A stretch of DNA of 41,123 bases from positions 1 to 41,123 of the forward strand of contig JALZWO010000171.1 of NCBI GenBank assembly GCA_023300375.1, in the 5' to 3' direction. This stretch comes from Granulosicoccus sp. GTDB taxonomy: Bacteria > Pseudomonadota > Gammaproteobacteria > Granulosicoccales > Granulosicoccaceae. Below the pieces are notes generated by a model. That model did not search any database. It saw only the letters and a program-made list of their open reading frames with translations, and was not told the DNA's origin. This document shows positions 2,814-9,926 of this stretch, piece by piece; position 1 is the first letter of the stretch; every line of letters starts with the position of its first letter. A program made the translations under genes and the position numbers.

Positions 2814-3503
2814 TTAGTTAGCATCCTCTAACAATTCCACCATTTCCTGGTACCCGCGACTTTTCGCGTGTGCCAACGGTGTAACGCCTCGTCGGTCAGC
2901 TATGTCCTTGTCAGCACCCGCGTTGACAAGGGCCACAACGGTTGCCACGTGATCTGCTCCACCATCACCGAGTATCACGGCTTCAATAAGGGCTGTCCAA
3001 CCTAGGTTGTTCACATGATCCAAAGGCGCGTTGGATTCAATTAATCGTTGTACAACAGCTGCGTGGCCAAGGTGTGCTGCGGCAATAAGCGCTGTGCCAT
3101 CGTATGGGCTAGTAACGTTCCCGGCACTCGCCCCAAGTTGTAGCGCAAGATCCATTATTTTCAGATCGTTATCTACGGCTGCTATGGTCACTATATCGTA
3201 GGCCTGTGACTCTAAAGCGTTCAGATCGGCATCAGCTTCAGCCAAGCGCGCTACAATGGCCTCATGCGATGCAAAAGCTGCAACATGCAATGGAGTTCTA
3301 CCAGAGCCATCGCGAACCTCAGTGTCAGCATCAGCTGCCAAGAGCGCATCAAGTTGTTCCAGATTGCCCTCATGTGCCGCTGCGTGAAGTGCTTTGTATC
3401 CGGCAATATCTTGTGCTGTCGGAGCGCTTTGCGCTGATACGCTTGTAGCGATAAAAGGTAGCGATCCTAAAAGTAGCAGGGTTGTCAGTGTTCTAGTAAT
3501 CAT
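2814..3503 (-). CDS. Secreted ankyrin-repeat protein
   Basis: 229 residues. Residues 1-24 form a signal peptide (ending SVSAQ), and the rest is almost entirely ankyrin repeats. Five to six units can be seen, starting near residues 36, 69, 102, 135, 168 and 206, with recognisable TPLHVAA, TALIAAAHLGH and TALIEAV helices and GADKDIAD-type turns. Such periplasmic ankyrin proteins are protein-binding scaffolds; some pseudomonad members sit next to catalase genes, but no catalase is present here. It is divergent from the plus-strand imelysin gene across about 200 bp, so a shared control region is possible. The partner is unknown. Confidence 0.87.
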   Translation of the reverse strand: MITRTLTTLLLLGSLPFIATSVSAQSAPTAQDIAGYKALHAAAHEGNLEQLDALLAADADTEVRDGSGRTPLHVAAFASHEAIVARLAEADADLNALESQAYDIVTIAAVDNDLKIMDLALQLGASAGNVTSPYDGTALIAAAHLGHAAVVQRLIESNAPLDHVNNLGWTALIEAVILGDGGADHVATVVALVNAGADKDIADRRGVTPLAHAKSRGYQEMVELLEDAN

Positions 3504-3660
3504 TAAAATGTGTATTTCCCAAATGTTTCAGATGCAGCAAACCATCGCTCCTTGGATCTACCATACTGTGACTGTGGGGCTAGCTGTCCCAAGTAGGTAA
3601 AATAGCAGGTGCAAGAAGGCTAATGTACAGCTTTGCTCAAGACCGGTTTAGAGGGTTGAT

Positions 3661-3676
3661 TGAACTGCTTAGTTCA
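3661..3676. promoter_or_regulatory. 16-bp perfect palindrome, possible operator
   Basis: TGAACT-GCTT-AGTTCA is a 6-bp perfect inverted repeat with a 4-bp centre, 32-47 bp upstream of the imelysin ATG at 3708 and in the divergent region shared with the ankyrin gene. Its position fits an operator, but no matching regulator is identified. Confidence 0.28.
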
Positions 3677-3691
3677 GAGTTCTGGTCATTA

Positions 3692-3710
3692 AATTGTGAT
3701 AATCAAGATG
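3692..3710 (+). promoter_or_regulatory. Weak Fur-box-like sequence at imelysin start
   Basis: A 19-bp stretch centred on GATAATC (3698-3704) matches about 13 of 19 positions of the classical Fur consensus by eye and overlaps the start codon. It is far weaker than the palindrome at 8885-8913. It is supported mainly by the gene downstream being an imelysin, a family often under Fur. Confidence 0.27.
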
Positions 3711-4796
3711 TATAGAAAATTGAATCGATCGATTTTATTTGCCTTGCTAGTCAGTGTTGTGCCGTGCACATACGCACAAAGCCAGCCTACGCCAGTGCAA
3801 GCAACGGATACTCACTTTGCTATTGGACACAGATTGCTTTACGACGTTTATCAGCCATTGCACATTGAATTTGCTCAGGCGGCTGAGCAATGGGCGGGTG
3901 ATGTTCAGGGTCTTTGTGAGCAACGTACTGCATCAAGCGTGTATAAGCTTCAAGTAAAGTTTGGCCATTTGATTGAATTGTTTGCAGCCGTTGAATTGTT
4001 TCGGGTAGGGCCCTTGCTTGAAGATAATCTACGCAACCGACTATTTTATTGGCCCGACAAAAGGCGTGTTGGTGAGCGCCAGTTGAGAGCGCTTCTAGCC
4101 GCTATGCCAGAACAACCAGTAAACGTTGAAGCACTCGCTGGAAAAAGCGTAGCGTTGCAGGGTTTTACAGCGCTCGAACGTCTGTTTTACTCAGCCGGTT
4201 ATCAGCCGGTAGAGCAGGCGCCTCAATGTCAGCTTATCCCTGTGATTGTGGATAATATTGCCACGATGGCTACAACGTTGAATGATGGTTGGAGTGCAGA
4301 CACCGAAATCACCCAAGCGCTGCTACAACCTAACTCCGAGTCCAAATACTTTCGTACTCAGGATGAGGTGATCGTCAGTGTGTTTACACAAATCAAGGTA
4401 GGGCTCGATATTGTGATAGACGCTAAACTCAAGCCCTTGCTGTCGCAAGATCAAAAGCTCATGCGCCAAACTCCACTGTGGATCAGCCAACGAACTGTCG
4501 CCATGCTTGCAGGTAATGTTCGCGGTTTGCAAGCGCTCCTGCTAGGCTCCGATTTACTGAAAGAGGGCAGGTTGAAAAAAAAATTACGCACAGAGTTCAA
4601 TTATTTAAATCATGTGTTGGAGGAGCTAAAACCCATTGTGTATTTTCTTGACCAAGACAACACCATGACGCCAAGAGTTACCGTACTGCTGAATAAACTG
4701 GCAGCTTCGTTGGTGGGTGTAAAGTGGCTGGTGAATGAAGAGGTATCCTTGGCATTAGAGGTAAAAGCTGGATTTAACAGTGAGGATGGTGACTGA
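3708..4796 (+). CDS. Imelysin-family periplasmic protein, second paralogue type
   Basis: About 362 residues from the ATG at 3708; a GTG at 3696 would add four residues before the signal peptide and is less likely. The signal peptide runs to about residue 24 (YAQ). The fold signature is an all-helical imelysin/M75 protein. At the usual GxHxxE position it reads GFTALE (about residues 152-157), so the histidine is replaced while the glutamate is kept. This GF-ALE form is characteristic of the second imelysin of these clusters. It probably binds metal or a partner rather than acting as a peptidase. It runs toward the DUF1513 gene, leaving only 20 bp between the stops. In the pseudomonad-type cluster this gene is normally co-directional with the others, so it is inverted here. 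Confidence 0.8.
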   Translation: MYRKLNRSILFALLVSVVPCTYAQSQPTPVQATDTHFAIGHRLLYDVYQPLHIEFAQAAEQWAGDVQGLCEQRTASSVYKLQVKFGHLIELFAAVELFRVGPLLEDNLRNRLFYWPDKRRVGERQLRALLAAMPEQPVNVEALAGKSVALQGFTALERLFYSAGYQPVEQAPQCQLIPVIVDNIATMATTLNDGWSADTEITQALLQPNSESKYFRTQDEVIVSVFTQIKVGLDIVIDAKLKPLLSQDQKLMRQTPLWISQRTVAMLAGNVRGLQALLLGSDLLKEGRLKKKLRTEFNYLNHVLEELKPIVYFLDQDNTMTPRVTVLLNKLAASLVGVKWLVNEEVSLALEVKAGFNSEDGD

Positions 4797-4816
4797 CATG
4801 AAAAGTGTTAGTACCT

Positions 4817-6004
4817 CTATACCGTAGGCAGGTGATACATATGATTATCCCAGTGCAATGAATGCTGGGCAAGCACCGTTACGCTACCGTGTGCGGCTTG
4901 CATAATGCTGCCAGTGCCAGTGGTGATCATTGCGCCAAGCGACGTGTCATCAGTGGCACCGTGAGCAGCCATGTTGGGAGTCATGGGTGCCACGCCACTG
5001 CAATCAAAAATAGACAAGCTGTGCTCTAATTGCTTGGTGCTACGATTAACCGTAAAGGCAACTGAGCCTTTGGCTGCAGTATAGATAACGTAGTCACCAA
5101 CAACAGCAATTGACGTCATATAGTGTTGTGCCTGTATTTGCAGTTCAGCGGGTACGTCTATCAACGTTAGTCCTGCTTGTGACTTGCCTGCTTTAAAGCT
5201 GCTCAACGTTTCATCAATGGATATGACTCCCGCAAGCCCATCGACAAACGGCTGGTCGCCTTCATACTGACTGGCGAACCAGACGTGACTATCGACGTAG
5301 GCAAGATGCCTTATCGACATTTGATGTAAATCGTCAGGCAAAAAATGCTGTCCAACAATATCGCCTGTACGTGCATCTATGATGGCTATAGAGGGTTGCA
5401 TAGCGTCGATGTTGAGTTTGTCTCGCCCTGAATCTGGGTGTGTTCTTATGCCGCCATTGGCAATGACCAACAAAGGTGAATCTGGAATGCGAATAACATC
5501 GTGTGGCCCAATACCACCCGTAGCAATCTCTGCAATCCTCTTATATTGCTGCTCGGTGTCATAGATGCCAAGTACACCTTGTGACGTTTCAAAGTTATTC
5601 TCGGTGGCGTATAACAGCTTGCCGTTAGTGGAGTAGGCACCATGGCCATAGAAATGCCTGCCAGCGACAGGTTCGATGCTGCGTTGTTCACTGGGTGAGT
5701 GGATATCAAAGGTATTCATATACAGGCCCGGGCGTCTGGCAAACAAGCAAGCCTGTCGTGTTTGTGGATGCGATGCAGCACCATGTGCACGAGCGCTCAG
5801 CGGCACGCTGGCAAGTATATTTCCGTGTTGATCAAAGATAACGGCCACAGGCGATTCATCCGCTAATACAGCGCCGCCGACATAGCGCTGCATTTGAGAG
5901 TCATCAGCCGCCACCAGAGTGGATGTAGTGATGGCATTGCTTGCGAAGCCTGAGGCTAATAAGCTCTTGAGCAACAGTCGCCTTGATGGATCAGTTAAGG
6001 GCAT
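4817..6004 (-). CDS. DUF1513 family protein, Tat-type export signal
   Basis: 395 residues. The N-terminus carries a twin-arginine-like signal (SRRLLLKSLLASGF), suggesting folded export to the periplasm. The remainder looks like a beta-propeller built of strand-rich repeats with scattered histidines (HGAASHP, GHGAYS, GPHDV, IRHLAYV, AAHGAT), as in DUF1513. No enzymatic activity is established for the family. It is the last gene of a minus-strand unit following the di-haem protein with a 47-bp gap. Its constant association with imelysins and DUF1111 proteins points to iron handling. A GAGG sits very close to the ATG, so the exact start is slightly uncertain. Confidence 0.85.
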   Translation of the reverse strand: MPLTDPSRRLLLKSLLASGFASNAITTSTLVAADDSQMQRYVGGAVLADESPVAVIFDQHGNILASVPLSARAHGAASHPQTRQACLFARRPGLYMNTFDIHSPSEQRSIEPVAGRHFYGHGAYSTNGKLLYATENNFETSQGVLGIYDTEQQYKRIAEIATGGIGPHDVIRIPDSPLLVIANGGIRTHPDSGRDKLNIDAMQPSIAIIDARTGDIVGQHFLPDDLHQMSIRHLAYVDSHVWFASQYEGDQPFVDGLAGVISIDETLSSFKAGKSQAGLTLIDVPAELQIQAQHYMTSIAVVGDYVIYTAAKGSVAFTVNRSTKQLEHSLSIFDCSGVAPMTPNMAAHGATDDTSLGAMITTGTGSIMQAAHGSVTVLAQHSLHWDNHMYHLPTV

Positions 6005-6051
6005 ATCCTCAGTTACTCTAGTTGCTGTTGCTAATAATACCGTTGCTGCGC

Positions 6052-7545
6052 TTACAACGATTCAAGAAAGCGGACCAGCTGCTCGCGCGCCTGCTGATTC
6101 ATTGTTAACACCCTCTCCAAAGAAGCCTGAGCTTCACCACCATGCCACAACACAGCGTCAAGTAAAGTGGCTGCGCGGCCGTCATGCAGAAAGCTGGTGT
6201 TGGGATTAACCGTTTGCGCTAAACCAATACCCCACAAGGGCGCTGTTCGCCATTCTGTACCTGTGGCGTAACCTTCGCCTGCATTATCTGCTAGATCCTC
6301 GCCCATGTCGTGTAGTAGCAGATCGGTATAGGGCCAGATCAGTTGGAATTGCAGTTCATCCTGTTGAGCCTCTCGAGAGGTCACATGTTTAGGTGTATGA
6401 CAAGCGGCGCATCCACTGCTGTAAAACAGCTGTTTCCCAGCTAGTACGTCTGGGTTGGAAACATCTCGTCTTACCGGTACCGCAAGGTTCTGTGTGTAGA
6501 AGGTGATTAGATCAACAACCTTGTCTGGCGCCTCCCCTTTGCCAAGCCGTGCCTGATCGCCGTGAGCCAGTGTTTCGCAAACAGTTTGTAATGCTGTGCA
6601 ATCACCTTGTGGATTGTTTAGCGAACCTGCCGAAGACGATAAGCCCATGTCGGTGAACAGCGCATGAATAGTTTGCTCTTTTACCGTAGACATAGCCGCT
6701 TTGTGTCCGAAGCGGCCTAGTGCGCGTTCGCCATTATCCAGAACTTGCCAGTTGGCTTTGCCAGAAATTCCATTGTTATCGGTGTCGTCTGGATCAGCAT
6801 AAGCAAGGATGTGAGCGGCATCAATGGACTCGAGTAGACCAAGGCCATGAACCGCAGGTGCTAGTCGTGGAGACAGGCGTGTGTTGCTGTCTAAATTGCC
6901 GTAAGCAAGATTATCTAACGAATAAATAGGTTTTTGGAGAACATGCTCAGTGCCGTCAGTGAATGTCCTCACTAGGGGTTCGTGCGTAATAGAGACTGAG
7001 CCTTCCGCATCAACACCGGTCACTGCTGCGGTATGCCATTGTGCTCCGTACATTGGATCAGGCCCCCAACGGTTGTTTAGGGCATTTTTAAGTTGCAGTA
7101 CCAGTGAGGAGGATCGCTCTTTTGCTGATTGAGGGAGTTGACCACGCCCGTCTTTCAGGTGACACGCTTGACAAGCTCGGGCATTGTAAAAAGGCCCTAA
7201 GCCATCGGATGCCTGAGTAGAAGAGGGGGAGGCTACCCAGAATTTATTAAACAGCGCGTTGCCTAACTTGAACGTTTGCAGATGTTCAAAGCCGAGTGTG
7301 GCTGTTTCCTGAGAGTAGGCGTTGCGGTCAATATTGGTTGTTTGTGTGGCCGCACCGCCTTGCATCAATTCAAAGCTTTCTGCCTTTAAAAAATCATTGG
7401 TATGTGCAAGAACACCTCGGACACGTTCGTTTTCTGGCCAGAGCTCTACCGGCAGAGCCGAGCCCTCATCAGACTTTGCAACAGGCACCATTAGCGAACA
7501 CGTCATGACAAGCGCAATGGTTGAACGCGAACTTCTCTGGAACAT
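6052..7545 (-). CDS. Di-haem oxidoreductase family protein (DUF1111)
   Basis: 497 residues with an N-terminal signal sequence. Two c-type haem motifs are present: CQACH at residues 125-129 and CAACH at 379-383. This matches DUF1111, the di-haem oxidoreductase or putative peroxidase family, and the length is typical. The protein should be matured by the periplasmic cytochrome c system. It lies between the lead imelysin and DUF1513 on the same strand, with gaps of 56 and 47 bp, so co-transcription is likely. A role in changing the redox state of iron, or in peroxide-linked chemistry, is inference from haem content and neighbours. No direct substrate is known. Confidence 0.9.
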   Translation of the reverse strand: MFQRSSRSTIALVMTCSLMVPVAKSDEGSALPVELWPENERVRGVLAHTNDFLKAESFELMQGGAATQTTNIDRNAYSQETATLGFEHLQTFKLGNALFNKFWVASPSSTQASDGLGPFYNARACQACHLKDGRGQLPQSAKERSSSLVLQLKNALNNRWGPDPMYGAQWHTAAVTGVDAEGSVSITHEPLVRTFTDGTEHVLQKPIYSLDNLAYGNLDSNTRLSPRLAPAVHGLGLLESIDAAHILAYADPDDTDNNGISGKANWQVLDNGERALGRFGHKAAMSTVKEQTIHALFTDMGLSSSAGSLNNPQGDCTALQTVCETLAHGDQARLGKGEAPDKVVDLITFYTQNLAVPVRRDVSNPDVLAGKQLFYSSGCAACHTPKHVTSREAQQDELQFQLIWPYTDLLLHDMGEDLADNAGEGYATGTEWRTAPLWGIGLAQTVNPNTSFLHDGRAATLLDAVLWHGGEAQASLERVLTMNQQAREQLVRFLESL

Positions 7546-7601
7546 AAAGCTAACGATACCTGTTAAAAAAATTGACCTGACACAGAAAATAATAATCGAT
7601 G

Positions 7602-8876
7602 TTATTGAAATACTGACGACGGACTATCAAGGCTATCAGAGCCCTCAAACGAAATCCCAGATACATCCAGAGCCGCCACCGCACGTTCCATGTTACGAGT
7701 TTGATACACCAATGCATCAATAGCGCTCTGAACCATCTGATTACCTTCAGTGTAGCCTTCGGCAATTAATTGATCGTACGCTTTACCCTCGTTTTGACTT
7801 TCTAGCAGGACGTTTAATGAGTCAACACTGGCTACAAGATCCTGTTCCAGTTCGTTGGCAAGCGATTCGTCAACGCTTGCAACCAGCTCCTTGAGTGAAG
7901 CTCCGGCAACTACGCTTCCGTTAACGCGTGTGTAGCGACCTTGGTAGACGTTTTGAATACCTAACCCATCGTAGAAATGTGATGCTGATGTGTTATCAGA
8001 AAAGCAATCATGCTCTTCTTCGGGGTCATGAAGCATCAAGCCTAACTGCATGCGTTCACCGGCTAGTTCGCCATAGCTTAAAGATCCCATGCCAGTTAAC
8101 ATCGCAGCGAGGCCAGCTTTATTATTTTCAGCTGTTAGCGCTGCGCGTGCGTCACCGCCATTTAGCCATGCATTTGTCATGTACTCGAGGTCGCTGATGA
8201 GAAGGTCAGTGGCCGCGCTGAGGTAGTCACCACGTCGATCGCAATTACCGTTGGAGCAATTGTCCAGATCGTAGTCGGTGTGTGAACGTGTACCCGCGCC
8301 ACTGTTACTACCGTTGAGATCCTGACCCCACAACAAGAACTCTATGGCGTGGTAACCCGTGGCAACATTGGTCTCAATGCCACCGGCCTCATGTAACTGC
8401 GTACCCAGTAGCTCTGGCGTAATGGTGGTGGCATCGATCTGCTGACCGTTTATAACAAGGCTGGGGCTGGCGATAATGTTTGCCGTGTAGAGGTCATTGT
8501 CTTCTGAGCCCACGCCGTAGCTACCATCTACGTAGTCAATTAGGCCTTCGTCCAATGGCCAAGCGTTCACTTTGCCTTCCCAGTCGTCAACGATAGGGTT
8601 GCCAAAGCGATACACCTCAGTTTGTTGGTACGGCACTCTGGCTTGTAACCACGCGTTGCGAGCGTTATCGAGTGTGCTCGTGGAAGGTGTATCAATCAGT
8701 GCTTGAACCGCTGTTTTAAGCTCTTTAGCGGTGAGCAGAGCATCTTCATAGCCAGCGTGTGCGATATCTGCGTAAGTATCTAGCACTTGCTCTGAGGTTA
8801 CTGTAGCGGCGGTCACATAGCCGCTGCTCAAGAGCAAGAGGCTGAAGCCTAATCGGTTTAGATAATTAATGTTCAT
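7602..8876 (-). CDS. Imelysin family protein (M75), lead gene of iron cluster
   Basis: 424 residues. The signal peptide ends near residue 23 (VTAA). The imelysin signature GYHAIE is at residues 174-179, giving the GxHxxE metal-binding motif shared with the C-terminal domain of EfeO. The family includes IrpA of cyanobacteria and IcmP of Pseudomonas and is linked to iron uptake or regulation; proteolysis in this family is doubtful. A near-perfect Fur-like palindrome lies 9-37 bp upstream of the ATG, so repression by iron-loaded Fur is strongly suggested. It appears to be the first gene of the unit with the di-haem oxidoreductase and DUF1513. Confidence 0.92.
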   Translation of the reverse strand: MNINYLNRLGFSLLLLSSGYVTAATVTSEQVLDTYADIAHAGYEDALLTAKELKTAVQALIDTPSTSTLDNARNAWLQARVPYQQTEVYRFGNPIVDDWEGKVNAWPLDEGLIDYVDGSYGVGSEDNDLYTANIIASPSLVINGQQIDATTITPELLGTQLHEAGGIETNVATGYHAIEFLLWGQDLNGSNSGAGTRSHTDYDLDNCSNGNCDRRGDYLSAATDLLISDLEYMTNAWLNGGDARAALTAENNKAGLAAMLTGMGSLSYGELAGERMQLGLMLHDPEEEHDCFSDNTSASHFYDGLGIQNVYQGRYTRVNGSVVAGASLKELVASVDESLANELEQDLVASVDSLNVLLESQNEGKAYDQLIAEGYTEGNQMVQSAIDALVYQTRNMERAVAALDVSGISFEGSDSLDSPSSVFQ

Positions 8877-8884
8877 GAATTTAA

Positions 8885-8913
8885 ATGCTAATAAGAACGA
8901 TTCGTATTAGCAT
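8885..8913 (-). promoter_or_regulatory. Fur-box-like palindrome
   Basis: The arms TGCTAATA (8886-8893) and TATTAGCA (8905-8912) are exact reverse complements, extended by one further pair, and the centre carries a GAA/TTC pair. The core AATAAGAACGATTCGTATT resembles gammaproteobacterial Fur boxes. It sits immediately upstream of the imelysin start, where a bound repressor would block transcription of the minus-strand cluster. Confidence 0.72.
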
Positions 8914-9617
8914 CTTAGCAGCTGAAAAGATGTCTGTGCAACTTTGTGGGTTGTGAATTTAATGGTAAGCCAATATTTATCGCCTGTCGCAGTAAACTAG
9001 TTCAAAGCTATTAGCTCGCATCGCTTCTCTATATGGGAACTGGTGCCGTTTGAGGTGAGTTAATTCCTTCAATAGCAATATGTTCGATCTCACAGTAAAT
9101 TTGAGAATGCCGTTGGCATTGCGAGAAGGTACATTCACTTTTTTAAAGGCCACAGCGTTTCACTTTGCGACCGGATAGAACATTAAGAAATAGCCTGTTT
9201 TTACTAAATCTAGCTCGTCTGTTGAAGCTTGCGCTATTTGTGCCAGTCGACAAAATGCAACGTGTTTACACAATTACGTGAGGACTCTAACGCTTTCTGG
9301 CAAGAGGGTATTTAATGTTTTGAGACTAGTGGTCGCTAAGCGCTCAATGACGAGAATGCTAAAAATCTTCGTTGTGAAGTACCCATGAGGGCAATTGCCC
9401 ACAGAAGCGAGTTACTTGATTTTTGTAAAAGGTGAGCGTGATCAGTGTTGTCAATTTGATTCAGGTAATACAGCTCGCTTCCGCCGATGAAATGTAAAAG
9501 CAGGTATTACAGTTTTCGCTACTTTTAACGAATTAGAGCCAAAAATTTATAAGGAATAAACAACACTACAAGGAAGTAAAAATTCCGTGGAACCCGCGTA
9601 ATTATTGGAGACCGAAT
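8914..9617. other. Gene-poor intergenic region
   Basis: About 700 bp with no convincing coding frame on either strand. It holds two small perfect inverted repeats: AATGCC-GTT-GGCATT at 9106-9120 and GGGCAATTGCCC at 9389-9400. Neither is followed by a T run. The right end supplies the ribosome binding site of the small gene at 9618. No RNA gene could be recognised, but a small RNA or a decayed gene is possible. Confidence 0.5.
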
Positions 9618-9926
9618 ATGAATACGAGTATCAGCTCTGACCTACTGTCGGCGACGATATCAAAACCTCAGTCTAGCTCTCGCCCTGCGCCCCCTGAAGT
9701 TAGCAACAAAGGTGGAGCAGAAAACGTGTCAGCGGTACAAACCGCAAGCAATAAATCCACTATCAATGCCAAAAATTCATTGATGGAGGGAGTAACGGAG
9801 CTTCAGGAATCAGGTGCCAGCTTCGTAGACATAAAGTCATACGTGAACAGCGAGATAAAGGCTAGTGGTATCGATGAATCCAGTGGATCGCGACGATCTG
9901 GATATCTTATCTACGTAAAGGCTTAG
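9618..9926 (+). CDS. Small orphan hypothetical protein (102 aa)
   Basis: A 102-residue frame with a good ribosome binding site, GGAG at 9607-9610, 7 nt before the ATG. There is no signal peptide or membrane segment. Residues 1-50 are rich in Ser, Ala, Asn and Pro and look disordered. Residues 53-82 (SLMEGVTELQESG, VDIKSYVNSEIKASGID) look helical. The end, GSRRSGYLIYVKA, is a short basic/hydrophobic tail. I do not recognise the family. It stands alone after a 740-bp non-coding stretch and converges on ygiQ, so the context says little. The SD and codon pattern support a real gene. Confidence 0.6.
   Translation: MNTSISSDLLSATISKPQSSSRPAPPEVSNKGGAENVSAVQTASNKSTINAKNSLMEGVTELQESGASFVDIKSYVNSEIKASGIDESSGSRRSGYLIYVKA

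Follow-up and report, generated by a model that had tools for sequence, protein, structure and literature searches.

The closest described relative of the genes analyzed here is the PA4370–PA4373 operon of Pseudomonas aeruginosa, which a 2011 study (Xu et al., PMC3143127) describes as Efe-like, regulated by Fur, and lacking EfeU. Our subject is a cluster of four genes, encoding two imelysins, a two-haem protein of the DUF1111 family (DHOR) and a DUF1513 beta-propeller, in a 41,123-nucleotide stretch of DNA from the marine bacterium Granulosicoccus sp. (assembly GCA_023300375.1, contig JALZWO010000171.1), the whole of which is called the window below. As described in PMC3143127, PA4370–PA4373 and VC1264–VC1266 of Vibrio cholerae share with the window a GxHxxE and a GxxxxE imelysin, a DUF1111 di-haem protein, Fur control (predicted in the window), and the lack of EfeU in the operon; the comparison with the P. 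aeruginosa and Vibrio operons was made by published description and not by gene sequence. VC1264–VC1267 and their Aliivibrio counterparts are given among IurV- or iron-responsive genes (PMC7600106, PMC4324432). A further relative is the Rhodobacter sphaeroides operon hemP-irpA-bfd-bfr-RSP_1545-1543, in which bfd and bfr are included and which stands under IscR (PMC4618611, PMC4344238). Its genes are reportedly cotranscribed, most being higher in an iscR mutant. In common with the window it has irpA, the gene of a "thiol oxidoreductase with 2 cytochrome c heme-binding sites", and another two proteins; it differs in having bfd and bfr within the operon and in its control by IscR and the Iron-Rhodo-box (PMC4618611). 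Judging from gene order, RSP_1544 and RSP_1543 would correspond to imelysin 2 and DUF1513 of the window.

A Locally Rearranged Cluster of a Known Kind

The cluster of the window is real, linked to iron, and of this already known kind, with a local rearrangement. Its four genes, which an earlier note on this DNA had described as encoding exported proteins, were confirmed with their coordinates by Pfam matches (table 1), the export signals being assessed by eye. As in PA4370–PA4373, a GxHxxE imelysin (imelysin 1, GYHAIE) stands beside DUF1111/DHOR, and a Fur-type operator precedes this lead imelysin; the GxxxxE imelysin (imelysin 2, with GFTALE at the GxHxxE position), however, is not within the same transcription unit. 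It lies on the opposite strand, which the earlier note did not mention, and is convergent with DUF1513 with 20 bases between their ends, so that the four genes cannot form one operon here. The three minus-strand genes are separated by 56 bases (imelysin 1 to DHOR) and 47 bases (DHOR to DUF1513).

Compared with the PA4370–PA4373 type, the second imelysin of the window is thus inverted, and it also belongs to a paralogous clade. In a tree of 19 rows it clusters with copies that stand alone elsewhere in the genomes of the genus (five rows, 100/99 support) and not with the in-operon second imelysins of the genus, its nearest relative being a stand-alone copy from genome G026 (G026_alone, 51–53% identity). 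This position suggests, most simply, that the operon lost its own second imelysin and that a stand-alone-type paralogue now adjoins it in the opposite direction. The absence of an own second imelysin together with a tail-to-tail paralogue is new relative to the known operon. The two imelysins are the only M75 proteins in the whole own genome (4.58 Mb, 97.5% complete).

Imelysin 1 has its best PDB sequence match in 7xrx, an insulin-cleaving metalloproteinase (E=1.2e-111). It ends in EGSDSLD...VFQ, whereas the P. aeruginosa protein 7xrx aligns to four residues from its end and leaves no room for such a tail, though the 7xrx construct may be cut short; in the comparison with the P. aeruginosa and Vibrio type, imelysin 1 showed no lipobox on inspection by eye.

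Table 1. Positions of the cluster genes and of the putative operator in the window, with the basis of each assignment
Feature	Position	Strand	Basis
Imelysin 1 (ICMP/IrpA type), lead gene	7602..8876	-	PF09375 E=1e-80, GYHAIE at residue 174
DHOR/DUF1111 two-haem CcP/MauG-fold protein	6052..7545	-	PF06537 E=1.2e-85, two CXXCH (125, 379)
DUF1513 beta-propeller, Tat-like export signal	4817..6004	-	PF07433 E=3.7e-85, propeller matches of model
Imelysin 2 (IPPA type, GxxxxE, C-terminus GFNSEDGD)	3708..4796	+	PF09375 E=7.4e-27, tree, tail
Putative Fur-type operator, 29-bp palindrome	8885..8913	.	19-bp core at 8890-8908, minus strand

The start of imelysin 2 is ambiguous between 3708 and a GTG at 3696. 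A scan of 3550–4830 for a terminator between the convergent genes gave one terminator-like site, inside imelysin 2, where 1.2 are expected, and a consensus scan of 8870–9000 called no sigma-70 promoter. Several neighbors were recorded: an exported-looking ankyrin gene adjoining imelysin 2 (2814–3503); an exported-looking metallo-beta-lactamase-fold protein (34–882), whose best NCBIfam model, a quinoprotein relay hydrolase, is far under its cut-off; and a small open reading frame without a Pfam match (9618–9926), to which another one, L087:2677-2988, is loosely alike by eye.

An Operator in Common with an Fbp-Type Importer

The putative operator is the palindrome ATGCTAATAAGAACGATTCGTATTAGCAT, in which 12 of 14 pairs are matched, and its 19-bp core, AATACGAATCGTTCTTATT, lies 13 bases upstream of the imelysin 1 start codon. 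It is the only 29-mer palindrome of such quality in the window, whereas 40 first-order Markov windows contain 0.05 on average and 1 at most. The E. coli-type 19-bp Fur consensus has no match in the window at up to three mismatches. Of the near-perfect Fur palindrome that had been placed before the lead gene, the symmetry therefore stands, and "near-perfect" applies to that symmetry only. A Fur protein is encoded in the own genome (PF01475, E=1.6e-41). The second-best site of the window, at 7588–7606 over the imelysin 1 stop codon and before DHOR, was rejected as too weak (11.6 of 31.4 bits).

To survey the genus, 27 Granulosicoccus genomes were searched with the pattern AATACGAATCATTCTTATT at up to three mismatches. 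This gave 59 rows, with both strands of each palindrome counted separately, against 16 rows for a reversed-pattern control, both over all mismatch levels. At up to two mismatches there are 23 places: 7 before imelysin 1 (genomes G000, G006, G012, G019, G023, G024, and G026), 13 before fbpA, 2 before fbpB (G008 and contig C138 of G007), and one at a contig end (G007, C66) adjoining genes for ABC-3 permeases, the gene that follows lying beyond the sequence. In the seven genomes the core stands 13–31 bases upstream of imelysin 1, with less conserved surroundings. Sites with three mismatches that were examined include some before fbpA or fbpB (G000, G013, G020, and G026). Within the own genome, no more than two sites exist at up to three mismatches, the one before imelysin 1 and one before fbpB. 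The genes that we take to be fbpA and fbpB were named from Pfam families (solute-binding SBP_bac and BPD_transp_1) and gene order together with a resemblance, and their neighbors are ABC-3 (PF00950) permeases. In G026, the three-mismatch fbpA site is adjoined by a ferritin-family gene, a fur-like frame and a Bfd-like frame, the last named by eye and without a Pfam match.

An iron link of the cluster, with a putative Fur-type operator, is thus supported by the operator in common with fbpA, by a ferritin-family gene within or next to the cluster in 23 of the 80 loci surveyed below, and by the published iron, IscR, or IurV response of genes named as counterparts in Vibrio, Aliivibrio, and Rhodobacter, in line with what the earlier note had proposed.

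The arrangement of the importer genes varies. In the own genome (G000:C44:35199-37262, L064) the site before fbpB has no adjacent fbpA, which is found in two pieces on contigs C103 and C98; fbpA is likewise absent between the Fur-type site and fbpB in G008, and G007 resembles both across two contig ends. No fbpA was found in G008 at all. Loss of fbpA beside fbpB was considered as a reason for the cluster and ruled out, since G008 lacks both fbpA and imelysins and the own genome retains fbpA. In G006, an ankyrin-repeat gene (L023:7643-8089) and the DUF1513 gene that it precedes face imelysin 1 across a common operator.

Gene Order and Distribution

Among 57 relatives, M75 was found in 14 genomes, DUF1513 in 12, and DHOR at more than 90 bits in 15; weaker DHOR rows of 20–32 bits look like another peroxidase family. 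Of 575 confirmed stretches with DUF1513, the best 80, mostly from Alphaproteobacteria, were surveyed for gene order. The order imelysin 1–DHOR–imelysin 2–DUF1513 on a single strand occurs in 71 of these 80 loci, and DHOR is present in 78. In three loci, imelysin 1 and DHOR are transcribed divergently from the remainder. As for the other six, L109, L132, and L174 are cut by contig ends, imelysin 1 of L123 is split into two frames, L147 has the standard order with an overlapping-frame call, and in L169, which shares its contig with G011 of this genus, DHOR is followed by DUF1513 without an intervening imelysin 2, as in the window. The 904-aa frame of L147 was considered as a natural DHOR–imelysin fusion and set aside as an artefact, as it runs out of frame across DHOR. 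Other arrangements are imelysin 1–DHOR–DUF1513–imelysin 2 on one strand (G034) and DHOR–DUF1513–imelysin 2 (G379). In 21 loci the ferritin-family gene separates imelysin 1 from DHOR; in L122 it stands amid the two divergent halves, and L117 has it downstream. The assignment was checked with Pfam on one of these genes, and five of the 21 overlap an overextended DHOR frame.

No FTR1 Permease as a Rule

The earlier note had suggested a functional parallel to EfeOB, with a separate inner-membrane transporter or a role as a buffer, and a co-occurrence check with efeU- or ftr1-like permeases. Neither the own genome nor any of the 14 relatives with M75 has FTR1 (PF03239), and it occurs in only 2 of 50 DUF1513-bearing genomes (48 lack it), a set hand-picked from the 80 loci, of unstated completeness, with four genomes also among the 57 relatives. 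As a control, the same search matched 4 of 14 control genomes, E. coli included. As a rule, then, there is no co-occurrence, and EfeU as the partner permease was rejected on this absence. The Efe-like hypothesis of the earlier note had already been published by Xu et al., and its expectation of FTR1 is not borne out.

EfeUOB and EfeM, as described in PMC9174327 and PMC3577903, resemble the cluster in having an M75 domain with an HxxE site and a nearby exported haem enzyme. EfeUOB differs in its FTR1 permease, which the window genome lacks, and in EfeO, which joins a cupredoxin to M75, whereas both window imelysins are M75 only, as are EfeM forms, described as likewise without cupredoxin. The haem proteins differ as well, EfeB being DyP-type and that of the window a di-haem c-type protein (PF06537). 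EfeB is described as a DUF1111 member in PMC3143127 and is placed in the DyP family by the abstract of another paper. Pfam gave no DyP match among the cluster proteins; no PF04261 search was made beyond the cluster. With FTR1 absent and a haem protein of the CcP/MauG fold in place of a DyP peroxidase, the cluster is not EfeUOB.

A Conserved Tail on the Second Imelysin

All 78 second imelysins found in the 80 loci lack GxHxxE throughout and end exactly in F-[NS]-x-x-D-G-D. By contrast, DGD does not occur at the end of any of the 77 first-imelysin frames: 71 have an SDSL-type tail, five a variant tail, and the remaining one is an N-terminal piece. Pieces of genes account for three of these frames (L123 twice, and L134). 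A class sample gave 28 imelysin matches in 25 of 369 genomes, 23 of them without the motif histidine; of these, 18 end in DGD, two in DADGDF, and three in GDND or SDSD. Among relatives, the DGD ending recurs in four stand-alone paralogues (L047, L048, L049, and L051), whereas GDND is the ending of the three distant paralogues L054, L056, and L057; G002 has a second imelysin with the ending DADGDSG. The Psychrobacter structure 3pf0 also has the DGD end, its last six residues being disordered. The string DGD is absent from the main text of PMC3143127, and a literature search for an imelysin-like C-terminal tail found none, with most subscription journals outside its reach, so that the tail may have been published.

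The idea that the tail is a docking signal for operon partners was weakened by the four stand-alone paralogues. Since copies outside the operon keep DGD, the tail more likely forms part of the work of imelysin 2 itself, for example, in metal binding. As an aside on these paralogues, those of L047 and L049 (L047:1279-3789, L049:1-2778) stand tail-to-tail with a long frame. Pfam identifies the L047 frame as a fatty acid cis/trans isomerase (CTI), which the L049 frame resembles by eye.

DHOR and DUF1513

The DHOR model (predicted local distance difference test [pLDDT] 86.6, predicted template modeling score [pTM] 0.88) has its nearest structure in hydrazine synthase subunit 5c2v_C (Z 15.7, root-mean-square deviation 3.1, 220 aligned), followed by the di-haem peroxidases 2vhd and 1iqc (Z 15.5), MauG (Z 14.4–15.1), and the copper-homeostasis MauG-like 6e1c (Z 14.5). 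The model thus places DHOR in the di-haem CcP/MauG fold, where the peroxidase, MauG, and hydrazine synthase matches are tied. Armadillo proteins also came up for DHOR in a PDB sequence search (E 2.8e-09), but this is an artefact in which a single weak match recurs over four repeats, with E of at least 3 for each.

The N-terminus of DUF1513, SRRLLLK, looks Tat-like by eye; its second Arg is invariant across an alignment of 42 rows, and the first is present in at least 90%. Its model (pLDDT 89.6) is a propeller, with Z of 26–31 to many propellers, including nitrous oxide reductase, YncE, and 5c2v_B, and its PDB sequence matches were dismissed as generic propeller matches only. A literature search on DUF1513 found no paper, with most subscription journals outside its reach. 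In MauG–methylamine dehydrogenase and in hydrazine synthase, a CcP-fold di-haem protein works with a beta-propeller partner, but identity to the window DHOR and DUF1513 is 13–19% in the matches listed. Since propellers are common and the Z values tied, this parallel is only a lead, and kinship of DHOR and DUF1513 with hydrazine synthase is not claimed, its rows being tied with others.

A Proposed Role and Its Alternatives

We propose, with a probability of roughly 55%, that the cluster is a periplasmic iron-handling module for iron starvation, of the PA4370–PA4373/irpA kind, which feeds an ABC importer rather than EfeU. Fur would repress the operon when iron suffices. In iron shortage the imelysins would bind periplasmic iron, imelysin 1 through its His-Glu site and imelysin 2 through acidic residues, perhaps including the DGD tail; the two-haem DHOR would alter the redox state of the imelysin-bound iron, and DUF1513, exported folded through its Tat-like signal, would dock or assemble the haem protein. 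The iron would then pass to FbpB with a displaced FbpA, or to the adjacent ABC-3 permeases. A more specific and speculative form, which we hold to be doubtful, would make the mobile acidic tail of imelysin 2 (F-[NS]-x-x-D-G-D) a swinging iron ligand or hand-off signal and DHOR and DUF1513 a di-haem/propeller complex that changes the redox of imelysin-held iron, giving an FTR1-independent route tied to the Fbp-type importer.

Several observations weigh against the proposed iron module. No Fur-type site could be detected for imelysin 2 (best score -1.0, vs. 27.2 for imelysin 1), and the cluster is patchy, with M75 in only 14 of the 57 relatives. In the genus, several three-mismatch sites stand beside unrelated genes (L071, L072, L074, L079, L087, L089, and L090), and G008 has the fbp operator without an imelysin, which indicates that importer and cluster are separable; in G002, which belongs to the genus but lacks DUF1513 and has a divergent imelysin, no site was seen by eye in the upstream bases examined. 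Outside the genus, G045 has a classical-looking site, those of G031 and G034 are weaker, and no Fur-type site was found before the imelysin in G050 and G029. It should also be noted that the substrate could instead be peroxide or another metal.

The Z of 15.5 to the di-haem cytochrome c peroxidases 2vhd and 1iqc, together with the ferritin-family neighbors, would also suit a periplasmic defence in iron starvation, with DHOR as a peroxidase and imelysins that keep iron from Fenton chemistry without import. We regard this as unlikely, because an operator common to importer and cluster suggests iron capture, and repression under plentiful iron would fit storage or detoxification less well. About as good are the matches of DHOR to MauG and 6e1c, which with an invariant Trp in both imelysins (alignments made here) would allow a MauG/MbnH-like maturation, in which DHOR oxidizes side chains of imelysin or DUF1513 to build a metal site or cofactor; with Z values tied to those of ordinary peroxidases, and as we know of no modified residue, this seems quite unlikely.

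That the imelysins and DHOR serve an Efe-type system by feeding an FTR1/EfeU-type permease encoded elsewhere is improbable: the M75 fold and GxHxxE motif are held in common, and the operon is termed Efe-like in PMC3143127, but the distribution of FTR1 given above, from the own genome to the DUF1513-bearing set, largely refutes the FTR1 form of this explanation. Least credible, and very improbable, is a role of the cluster in protein degradation, with the imelysins as peptidases (MEROPS M75). ICMP was originally reported as an insulin-cleaving protease; as set out in PMC3143127, however, none of the known metallopeptidase sites is seen, and Xu et al. suggested that the early preparation was contaminated. 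The iron control and the gene neighbors likewise argue against degradation.

The imelysin/DHOR/DUF1513 operon is widespread and, in published work, iron-responsive, and its mechanism is the question that is being narrowed here. Three results contribute to this: EfeU/FTR1 seldom co-occurs with the operon, the operator is held in common with an Fbp-type importer in the genus, and the second imelysin has a strictly kept DGD end, disordered in the one crystal structure solved.

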